Source: Luteithermobacter gelatinilyticus
GTDB lineage: Bacteria; Pseudomonadota; Alphaproteobacteria; Sphingomonadales; Emcibacteraceae
Assembly (NCBI RefSeq): GCF_005849285.1
Contig: NZ_CP040517.1
Coordinates: forward strand, 750,501-814,500
Direction: 5' to 3'
DNA length: 64,000 nt
The position numbers and the translations under genes are program-made. Below, piece by piece: positions 1,274 through 56,660 of the stretch (its first letter is position 1; each line of letters opens with the position of its first letter). The notes under the pieces are model-generated. The model was not told where the DNA came from. It did not search any database and saw only the letters and a program-made list of their open reading frames with translations.

Positions 1274-1311
1274 TAGAGTGAATTGAGCCAACCTATTCAC
1301 AATTCACTCTA
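1274..1311. repeat. Palindromic intergenic repeat, complete copy A
   Basis: Perfect 12-bp arms TAGAGTGAATTG (1274-1285) and CAATTCACTCTA (1300-1311) enclose a 14-nt loop containing CCAACCTATTCA. The same element recurs at 49008-49045 and, in the opposite orientation with a longer loop, at 10313-10358. The last three bases (1309-1311), read on the minus strand, are the TAG stop codon of the second DUF308 gene. There is no adjacent T-run on either strand, so it is not a classical terminator. Confidence 0.85.
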
Positions 1312-1881
1312 GTCACTTGGGGCAATGGCCGTGTTGATAATGCGGGAAGCCTGCCCGACGGCCAAAAGATTCAGGCTGAGCGCCAGGACAGGGGTCCAGA
1401 ATGCAACAGAGGGCCACCCTGTCAGCAGGGTGAGGGCAAAGGCAATGGAAAGATAGCCCGTGCCAACCATGGTGCCGGCTTTATGTCCTGCAAAGGTATA
1501 GCGGCCTTCAATCACCACATATAACCCCGTGGCCAGCAAATAGCCGCCGATGCTGATCTCAAGTGGGATATGCAAGGAAAGAGGGTCCATCAGGATGCCC
1601 CAGGCCACAATTAACGTAAAGATGGTGATCCCCGCCCGCCAGGCAAATCCTGGCCTCACCCCCCATTTTAGCAGTATGGCCAATTGTACCAGCCCTTTGA
1701 TGAGCAACATTGTGCCCGCCAGCGTCGCCATGTCCACTTCACCAAGCCAGGGCAGCAATATGCCCAGAAGCCCCAGCACCGTATAGGCCGGCCATTGTAG
1801 AATCAGAAAATTTTTGCTGGCGGCAAAGGCTCTGTCCTTGACGGTCTGATCGGTTTCCCCATTTTTGCTATAATCCACCAT
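1309..1881 (-). CDS. HdeD/DUF308 family membrane protein, copy 2
   Basis: A 190-residue membrane protein paralogous to the gene at 535-1176. Both share the QWPAYTVLGL segment, the RPGFAWRA/NPGFAWRA turn and the GLYVVIEGRY/GFYVVIEGRY segment. It lacks the long hydrophilic C-terminal tail of copy 1 and ends IAPSD. Its TAG stop is the first three bases of a palindromic repeat, so the original 3' end may have been altered by the repeat. It lies upstream of copy 1 on the same strand, and the 130-bp spacer contains the repeat. HdeD-like proteins are associated with acid or envelope stress in enterobacteria; carrying that over here is inference. Confidence 0.8.
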   Translation of the reverse strand: MVDYSKNGETDQTVKDRAFAASKNFLILQWPAYTVLGLLGILLPWLGEVDMATLAGTMLLIKGLVQLAILLKWGVRPGFAWRAGITIFTLIVAWGILMDPLSLHIPLEISIGGYLLATGLYVVIEGRYTFAGHKAGTMVGTGYLSIAFALTLLTGWPSVAFWTPVLALSLNLLAVGQASRIINTAIAPSD

Positions 1882-5454: not shown

Positions 5455-5498
5455 CCCGATACAGGCCCGATACAGGCCCGATACAGGCCCGATACAGG
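5455..5498. repeat. Tandem repeat, four perfect 11-bp units
   Basis: Four head-to-tail copies of CCCGATACAGG without a mismatch, at 5455-5465, 5466-5476, 5477-5487 and 5488-5498. They lie between the ArsR-methyltransferase gene and metF, 51 bases before the metF start. Perfect identity implies recent expansion or slippage. The 11-bp period is close to one helical turn, so the copies present the same face of DNA. Confidence 0.95.
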
Positions 5499-10312: not shown

Positions 10313-10358
10313 TTAGAGTGAATTGCGAATAGGTTGACCCATTCACAATTCACTCTAA
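10313..10358. repeat. Palindromic intergenic repeat, complete copy B (inverted, longer loop)
   Basis: Arms TTAGAGTGAATTG (10313-10325) and CAATTCACTCTAA (10346-10358) pair perfectly over 13 bp around a 20-nt loop. The loop carries AATAGGTTGA, the reverse complement of the inner sequence of copies A and C, so this copy is inserted in the opposite orientation. It lies between metH and ubiA, 5 bases beyond the TAG stop of ubiA. As in the other complete copies, the neighbouring gene end is on the minus strand. Confidence 0.85.
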
Positions 10359-48459: not shown

Positions 48460-48625
48460 ATCATTAATCCGGATAAGATCTGGAGTAAACTGTGGTAAGG
48501 CCCCGGTCCGAACAGACTTTATCCGCTTGGTCTCTAAAGCGAAAAATGTAACTAATATTAAGTTTTTTTTAACGATCGGCTTTGTACCCTGTCACTATAA
48601 AGTATATTTAGAGCCAGGTAGACAC

Positions 48626-48943
48626 ATGCAGGATTCCGTAATCAGACAAATTCTCAGTTCCATGCGCCGTCATAACCGCCGCACAGTGTTGTTGCCGGCC
48701 AGGCTGGATGTGGGAAAATATAATTTCGACTGTACGGCATATGACATTTCGCTGGGCGGAATTCGGCTCAAGGTGGACCTGCCGTTGGAGCAGGGGGCGA
48801 AAGTTTATGTCCAGCTCAAAGACAAACTGAAACGCGCCGCTAATGTTATCTGGTCGGCCGATGGTTTTGTCGGGCTGAAATTCTGTGATGCGCCGGAAAT
48901 CATCCGGGGGGAACTTGGCAGTCTGGCCAAGGGGCTTAACTGA
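48626..48943 (+). CDS. PilZ domain protein, copy 2
   Basis: A 105-residue PilZ protein with RRHNR (RxxxR) and DISLGG (DxSxxG), so it should bind c-di-GMP. Shared blocks with copy 1 include RRT, the YDISLGGxRxKxDLPL core, GFxGLKF and IRGxLGxLxxGL at the C terminus, pointing to duplication around rnpB. The ATG at 48626 follows AGCCAGG; longer frames run back into the RNase P RNA and are not real. The 166-base spacer after rnpB holds an AT-rich stretch with eight T at about 48562-48569 but no gene. Confidence 0.88.
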   Translation: MQDSVIRQILSSMRRHNRRTVLLPARLDVGKYNFDCTAYDISLGGIRLKVDLPLEQGAKVYVQLKDKLKRAANVIWSADGFVGLKFCDAPEIIRGELGSLAKGLN

Positions 48944-49007
48944 TCTCTTTTGCTCTGATCCCTCCCGCCTTTTTACTGTCCTGAATCGATATGAATCGGC
49001 ATGGTGT

Positions 49008-49045
49008 TAGAGTGAATTGAGCCAAGCTATTCACAATTCACTCTA
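49008..49045. repeat. Palindromic intergenic repeat, complete copy C
   Basis: Arms TAGAGTGAATTG (49008-49019) and CAATTCACTCTA (49034-49045) are identical to copy A at 1274-1311; the 14-nt loop differs at one base (AGCTATTCA versus ACCTATTCA). The last three bases, read on the minus strand, are the TAG stop of the AHL synthase gene. It lies between the convergent PilZ copy 2 and AHL synthase genes. Confidence 0.85.
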
Positions 49046-49687
49046 GGCCACATTCCGAGCAACGGGGTTTGGTGTGGGCCGGTCGATATGCAGCACGGCG
49101 CCAGTGATGCTGCGGCGGCGGCGGACCAGTTCGAGCCCCACGGCTGAAACCTTGATGGCAAAGGCGATGACGGTTTCGCCGTCCATGTCCTGTGGATAGC
49201 CCAGCGGTTCAATGCCCCAGCCCGCGCGCAAGATGCAGGGAAACGTCGCCATATCCGTGACAAAGGTGATCTGCTCAATCCCATAAAGCAGGGCCGCTTC
49301 CATCAACGCGCTGCTGAAGGCGGCGCCGATCGGATTCATCAGGTTCAGGCCACCGTTCCCTCCAGACAGGATATAGGCCCGCGAACATTCCCAGATTTTG
49401 GGGCCCCGTGGCACTTCTCCTTCGATGAGGTGAGGGAATATTTCGGACATCAGATGTGGTTTTTCCGTCGGCAAAAGGCGCATGCTGCCCAAAACGTCAC
49501 CCTGTTCATCCAAGGCCATAAGATACAAGGCGTCTTCCGTATCAAACTGGTCCTTTTCATATCCCGGCCGGGCCAAGGGAAGCGACCAGCCTTTCTGTTC
49601 CACAAAAACCCGGTATCTTTGCCGGTGCATTTGGGAAATGGCTGTCAGATAACGATGCCGGTTTGCGGCAGTGACCAAGGTGATCAT
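49043..49687 (-). CDS. Acyl-homoserine-lactone synthase, LuxI family
   Basis: A 214-residue autoinducer synthase that makes an acyl-homoserine lactone from SAM and acyl-ACP or acyl-CoA. The conserved residues are present: Arg and Phe in RQRYRVFVEQKGW with the Trp at its end, Asp pair in FDTEDALYLMALD, Arg in GSMRLLPTEKP, and the WECSRAYI segment. I start at the ATG at 49687, preceded by AAAGGAG; nine upstream codons lack such a site. The TAG stop is part of a palindromic repeat, so the last codons may have been changed. The cognate regulator lies upstream on the same strand. Acyl chain length cannot be predicted. Confidence 0.93.
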   Translation of the reverse strand: MITLVTAANRHRYLTAISQMHRQRYRVFVEQKGWSLPLARPGYEKDQFDTEDALYLMALDEQGDVLGSMRLLPTEKPHLMSEIFPHLIEGEVPRGPKIWECSRAYILSGGNGGLNLMNPIGAAFSSALMEAALLYGIEQITFVTDMATFPCILRAGWGIEPLGYPQDMDGETVIAFAIKVSAVGLELVRRRRSITGAVLHIDRPTPNPVARNVA

Positions 49688-49763
49688 GAAACCGTCTCCT
49701 TTGTTGCCGAACATTTACATCTATGTTTGCGAGAATGCCTTGAAAGGTAGGACGTTGTAACCT

Positions 49764-49779
49764 CCCTAGTCGGATAGGG
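49764..49779. promoter_or_regulatory. Candidate lux-type box upstream of the AHL synthase
   Basis: CCCTA (49764-49768), six bases, TAGGG (49775-49779) forms a perfect dyad centred about 85 bases upstream of the synthase start. LuxR-family boxes are dyads of 18-20 bp, and CT-N12-AG can be fitted here (49762-49777). This is the only clear dyad in the luxR-luxI spacer. Confidence 0.35.
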
Positions 49780-49848
49780 TCACGAACGCATCAGGTCAGC
49801 CGATAAGCCGGAACGGAGATGAAGGCCGGGATCATATATGGACTCATT

Positions 49849-56358: not shown

Positions 56359-56636
56359 GGCTGGCCTCAATCTTTCCTGCTCGGTTTGATTTTCTCTGCT
56401 CTGTTTTATTCTATATCTTAATCTTATTTCTATAACGCGGCCGATGCCGGGTGTTTCGTTTTTCCTGCCCTATCCTGGCTTATTTTCTGTTCTTGACCTG
56501 AGTGGCTTGTTCATGGCCTGACTGCGTCAAGGGCGCTGGCGGATTTGTGGCCGCCGAGTCTTTCCCGGAAATTGTTTTTCTGAAACCAACTGAACACACC
56601 GCATGCCGGACACGGCGTGGCCTTTGGTTTTTTGGG

Positions 56637-56660
56637 CAACCTGTTCGCAATTCACTTTAA
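56637..56660. repeat. Degraded half copy of the TAGAGTGAATTG palindrome family
   Basis: CAACCTGTTCGCAATTCACT followed by TTAA matches the inner part plus right arm of the complete copies (CAACCTATTCACAATTCACTCTAG in copy A) with a few substitutions. No left arm was found. It is upstream of the mraZ boxes. Confidence 0.5.

Follow-up and report, generated by a model that had tools for sequence, protein, structure and literature searches.

A Short Dispersed Repeat of Luteithermobacter gelatinilyticus, Very Probably an IS630-Type MITE, Is Enriched at Stop Codons and Gene 3′ Ends

Introduction

The luxI-type gene in a 64,000-nucleotide stretch of the Luteithermobacter gelatinilyticus genome (positions 750,501 to 814,500 of contig NZ_CP040517.1; hereafter the window) ends at a TAG codon made by a short repeat. 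An earlier note on this DNA had reported that two of the three intact copies of the repeat supply a stop in this way and that the third lies just past the ubiA stop, and had suggested either that stop codons or 3′ ends are targeted, or that insertions at these places are selected for. The locus raises the question of what the repeat is, and of whether stop codons are sought by it as such or copies of it survive at the ends of genes.

Copies of the Repeat in the Window

The copies in the window and the genes next to two of them are as follows (window coordinates).

374-397, no strand: decayed solitary end, its 12-nt arm (386-397) carrying one mismatch
1274-1311, no strand: copy A, 38 bp, which gives TAG (1311-1309) to the gene at 1309-1881 (minus strand)
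10314-10357, no strand: copy B, 44-bp form, intergenic target
48626-48943, plus strand: PilZ gene, the convergent neighbour of copy C
49008-49045, no strand: copy C, the 38-bp element plus both flanking TAs, inside the convergent gap
49043-49714, minus strand: luxI-type gene, an AHL synthase (PF00765 Autoind_synth, E 1.1e-23)
49043-49045, minus strand: TAG stop of the luxI-type gene, formed by the duplicated target TA and the element's first base, G
56634-56659, no strand: decayed half copy, GGGCAACCTGTTCGCAATTCACTTTA

The stop codons of the luxI-type gene and of the gene beside copy A are thus both made by the repeat, as had been reported, and for both genes the reconstructed original stop was TAA. 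The position of the third copy required a small correction: it does follow the ubiA stop (TAG, 10366-10364, minus strand), but at 6 bp rather than 5, one extra base of the palindrome having been counted previously.

Homologues of the luxI-type gene in other genomes of the family have a similar end point, several of them terminating in VA* like the gene here, and two carry tails of more than 60 residues. Judged from the similar ends of these relatives, the stop of the luxI-type gene looks native rather than the result of a truncation. Short sequence patterns searched in the contigs of other genomes recovered no named luxI relatives, and no Rfam family matched at E 0.1 in window positions 48600-49800.

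The window held two further features of note. The genes at 535-1176 and 1309-1881 have a 61-nt stretch in common at 80% identity (1045-1105 and 1750-1810) and, from this likeness, look like paralogues; neither matched a Pfam family. Between two other genes, at 5455-5498, an 11-bp unit (CCCGATACAGG) is repeated four times in tandem.

Anatomy and Copy Number

The repeat has the structure TA-GAGTGAATTG...CAATTCACTC-TA and is mostly 38 bp long. Across the whole 3,145,891-bp genome its exact arm, TAGAGTGAATTG, gave 151 matches on one strand and 154 on the other, and the reversed control pattern had no match in the same genome. The pattern TAGAGTGAATTGTG was matched once, in only one of 39 other genomes.

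The sample taken around copies comprised 93 stretches (889,581 bases) and contained 118 paired short copies, of which 97 were 38 bp and 8 were 44 bp. After removal of those with an end lacking TA or an overlap with another copy, 94 of the 118 were retained in a kept set of 125 copies in all. This set also held 25 longer elements of 143-296 bp, most of about 270-296 bp, that have the ends of the repeat, as well as four elements of 28-29 bp with these ends. Solitary ends were left uncounted, except for pairs forming the two ends of long elements, and copies with both arms damaged are under-sampled.

The common end, which extends over 22-27 nt, was found on the 143-296 bp elements as well as on the 38- and 44-bp copies. 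The short units (38-56 bp) are without coding capacity for a transposase and have stop codons near both ends. The 38-bp unit consists of the first 32 nt of one end of the long element followed by ACTCTA; such a unit would result from fold-back copying, or from a deletion, at CAATTC. The element is nearly palindromic, which would let a stop be rebuilt from either side of it.

Another dispersed repeat, ~150-170 bp long, adjoins one end of short copies in several instances, and the junction base is invariably the same. It was seen in stretches L024, L107, L091, L058 and others, for example at genome positions 577873-578031, 585976-586099, 1595378-1595499, 2896074-2896232 and 3111343-3111501. This repeat and the short copy may be a composite that spread jointly.

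Relation to IS630-Type Elements

Only two DDE_3 transposase genes were identified in the genome (E 6.6e-37 and 1.3e-36). Both are inside elements measuring 1058 bp from TA to TA, with TAGAGTGAATTGTGAAAAGGTT at the start and GACTCTA at the end. The left ends of these insertion sequences (ISs) and of the short repeats agree over ~21 nt, with the exception of one position, and the right end of the IS has diverged (TAGAGTCTTTTGTTAATAGGTT); in the kept set this right end was placed 2 bp too far, which affected only the two IS rows. Relatives of the IS in other genomes likewise start with TA followed by GAGT (L131, L148 and L150), and the named carriers of the transposase amounted to six loci, including a Magnetovibrio MAG and unplaced alphaproteobacterial MAGs. 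In both copies the transposase is encoded in two overlapping reading frames (L006 1842-1975; L100 3012-3145), an arrangement that looks as if frameshifting were used for its expression.

We read the repeat as an IS630-type MITE that duplicates TA because its ends are common to the ~270-295 bp elements and to both DDE_3 elements. Its mobilization most likely depends on the genome's own IS630-type transposase, acting in trans.

Target Site

The clearest view of the target came from a 270-bp insertion at genome position 941409, for which ten paralogous sites without the insertion keep a single TA, eight of the ten aligning gap-free at the junction. Duplication of TA is shown in this way for the 270-bp form; it is supported by poorer alignments for the 44-bp form, and no clean case was obtained for a 38-bp copy.

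The reconstructed targets conformed to Y-TA-R in 107 of 121 cases, a preference measured among surviving copies. Both the target and the per-site counts exclude two targets whose TA also belongs to an adjacent copy. At the 67 intergenic targets, the base before TA was C in 41 and T in 21, and the base after it G in 37 and A in 25; the strongest flank was C-TA-G.

Enrichment at Stop Codons and at 3′ Ends

The distribution of targets was compared with that of TA dinucleotides in the same stretches, using genes called by our own dicodon model, rather than the public annotation, after in-script removal of the copies. The 121 targets comprised 43 stop-codon TAs, 67 intergenic and 11 coding, against 397 stop, 5968 intergenic, 19,945 coding and 117 gene-edge TAs among the 26,427 controls. 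A flank-stratified test gave 18.9 expected stops versus the 43 seen (odds ratio 4.0, z 6.6). When only YTAR sites at stops or between genes were considered, 42 of 99 element targets were at stops (42 stop, 57 intergenic), versus 146 of 1197 local controls (146 stop, 1051 intergenic; odds ratio 5.3, p 1e-12). A further 20 control stretches (398,000 bases), separate from these and selected because no exact forward arm had been listed in them, gave 75 of 466 (75 stop, 391 intergenic; odds ratio 3.8, p 4e-8); they contain 15 arms at up to one mismatch. The enrichment at stop codons holds beyond the window; the earlier note had named a lack of enrichment across all copies as the outcome that would speak against its suggestion, and the opposite was observed.

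Reconstruction of the pre-insertion stops gave 27 TAG and 19 TAA, for 46 genes at the 43 stop-located targets. Single copies at 1585730, 2120603 and 3112998 provide the stops of both convergent neighbours. Another frame of the element ends one or more called genes at 12 of the 125 kept copies, so that the last residues of these genes are changed; the other-frame stops within the element are TGA or TAA at +5, TGA at +10 and TAG at +16. One 38-bp copy, at genome positions 2385338-2385375, is a case of real truncation: the reconstructed gene has its stop 251 bp farther on, but the gene now ends at a TGA in the element.

The position of copies relative to gene ends followed a steep gradient. Outside other coding genes, and with all per-site rates raised by the choice of stretches, occupancy per YTAR site was 41/181 at stops, 6/27 at +1 to +10, 8/59 at +11 to +20 and 8/75 at +21 to +40, and farther out 5/102 at +41 to +80, 11/179 at +81 to +160, 5/139 at +161 to +320 and 2/96 beyond 320. 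Within coding sequence it was 5/68 in the last 30 bp, 2/112 at 31-100 bp and 1/309 at 101-300 bp from the stop, and copies were absent deeper than 300 bp (0/694). For the stretches covering the window and the contig's final part, the rates were 7/65 at stops, 5/58 at +1 to +40 and 3/178 beyond.

No stop-specific targeting is shown by these data, because per-site occupancy is equal at the stop (41/181) and 1-10 bp beyond it (6/27). A modest excess at stops may nevertheless exist, as the comparison of stops with sites +3 to +40 bp gave an odds ratio of 1.85 (p 0.036), and about 1.8 (p 0.07) against the separate controls. Occupancy of stop sites was higher in convergent gaps (31/96) than in tandem ones (10/90; p 0.0007). 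When gap length was matched, in tests built on the tabulated counts of a gap-length occupancy analysis, the odds ratio of stop versus intergenic sites was 1.6 for convergent (z 1.2) and 2.5 for tandem (z 2.25) gaps. There is good evidence, then, for retention of copies at 3′ ends, above all between convergent genes, and this bias fits selective tolerance, with purifying selection as its presumed cause. The earlier suggestion is partly supported: the enrichment at stop codons is real, and there was no evidence for targeting of stop codons as such.

Proposed Mechanism and Alternative Explanations

We propose that the element enters at a TA, preferably within Y-TA-R, and duplicates it. As an in-frame TAR is always a stop (TAA or TAG), a frame-0 insertion at a preferred site would be an insertion into an existing stop, and stop codons would often be struck because the YTAR target and the in-frame TAR stop coincide. 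The gene would survive because the leading G of the element, together with TA, regenerates TAG at the struck stop; the protein would be spared and the copy could persist. Short gaps 3′ of genes, above all between convergent genes, would likewise tolerate an insert, and copies would survive there. As a whole, the explanation that the repeat is an IS630/Tc1-mariner-type MITE with a duplicated TA target that survives at tolerated 3′ ends is, in our judgment, very probably correct. Several observations count against it. Of the two ends of the 38-bp form, one is full and the other shortened; an excess of stops over +3 to +40 bp remains (p 0.04-0.07), next to the tandem z of 2.25; and YTAR occupancy falls with the length of convergent gaps (at stops, from 19/47 at 60 bp or less to 2/12 above 250 bp), a trend unexpected under tolerance alone.

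This last fall, even between convergent genes, also speaks for active steering, in which the transposase or a partner from the transcription or translation termination machinery directs insertion to stops or transcript ends. The strong 3′-end gradient and the convergent-gap bias suit such steering as well, yet occupancy at stops equals that of the next 10 bp, the gap-matched convergent excess reaches only z 1.2, and stops in tandem pairs no more than 20 bp apart, though stop codons too, were struck in 0/9 cases. We consider steering unlikely. We give about the same small credence to the idea that copies are kept as useful gene-end modules, with stops in several frames and, in the RNA, a hairpin by which transcripts coming from both sides are terminated or protected. 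The copies do fold into a hairpin of at least 12 bp (−14 to −25 kcal/mol), the convergent bias is in keeping with this role, and three copies give stops to both convergent neighbours. Against it, copy C, the one copy scanned for this purpose, has no T run and no match to an intrinsic terminator. Of the arm changes, 69 were one-sided and one was both-sided (1.15 expected), with no compensation, a weak argument given that most copies were found by their exact arm, and arm decay was alike at stops and between genes (0.44 versus 0.43 changes per copy). A terminator function of the hairpin is possible but unsupported. A combined version, in which the 38-bp unit is drawn to or favored at transcript ends, especially those of close convergent genes, as a mobile gene-end cassette that equips both neighbours at once with a hairpin and with TAG stops, is doubtful, if somewhat less so than either of these two.

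That insertion truncated the genes and made new stops is highly improbable. The other-frame stops near the ends of the element, and the 12 of 125 copies with a gene ending inside, speak for it; in frame-0 cases, however, TAA or TAG is re-formed with the base that follows the distal TA, an in-frame TAR is never a sense codon, and the C-terminus of the luxI-type protein has the length seen in most relatives. Least credible of all is the reading of the repeat as a REP palindrome whose mobility comes from a REP-associated tyrosine transposase (RAYT). The size, the palindrome and the presence of one Y1_Tnp gene in the genome recall such a system, but the TA target duplication and the ends in common with IS630 do not, and the 20 kb surrounding that gene (L165) contained no arm at up to one mismatch. 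As the palindrome does not flank the lone Y1_Tnp gene, an origin of this kind was rejected.

Comparison with Known Systems

Tenzen and Ohtsubo are said to have found in 1991 that IS630 of Shigella sonnei prefers a TA within CTAG. The context is like the strongest flank here, C-TA-G; that element is an autonomous IS, however, and the present repeat accepts Y-TA-R more widely. ISY100, also of the IS630 family, inserts almost only at TA, which is duplicated (PMC2170065).

A close likeness is to RUP of Streptococcus pneumoniae, which is 107 bp long, has ends resembling IS630-Spn1, uses a TA target and is present in about 108 copies (PMC2229807, PMC3049150). Both repeats are short, have ends like an IS630 of the same genome, use TA and are in excess between convergent genes. 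They differ in size (107 bp versus mostly 38 bp), and their sequences and hosts are unrelated; in addition, RUP density peaks 50-150 bp from genes (PMC3049150), whereas the density of the repeat here is highest at the stop and immediately past it. Tolerance is the published explanation for the excess of BOX, RUP and SPRITE between convergent genes (PMC3049150). In the same text, BOX of S. pneumoniae encodes the stop in 36 of 58 overlapping genes without strong evidence of truncation, and SPRITE is found near 3′ ends between convergent genes (PMC3049150). The present repeat is like BOX in supplying stops and like SPRITE in its convergent 3′-end placement; unlike it, BOX is tied to ISSpn2-like ends rather than IS630 (PMC3049150). 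The codon-level reason proposed here, a YTAR target and a leading G, was not found in the accessible part of that account of BOX and SPRITE. The Correia/NEMIS elements of Neisseria are MITEs of ~107 and ~155 bp with TA at their ends and target duplication (PMC2229807). They share these ends and the duplication with the present repeat and differ in their longer terminal repeats, sequence and size.

A 38-bp IS630 MITE, or the YTAR/stop argument, was not found in the literature searched, as far as its text was accessible. If truly mobile, the 38-bp form would offer a Tc1/mariner-type transposase a minimal substrate. The results offer a simple codon-level reason for the presence of some mobile elements in stop codons, namely that their target coincides with a stop and the first base of the element repairs it, and they caution against inferring targeting from stop-codon geometry alone. 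Set beside these systems, the family described here has a new sequence and an unusually small size, and its stop geometry is of an already known kind, with a clear codon-level reason.
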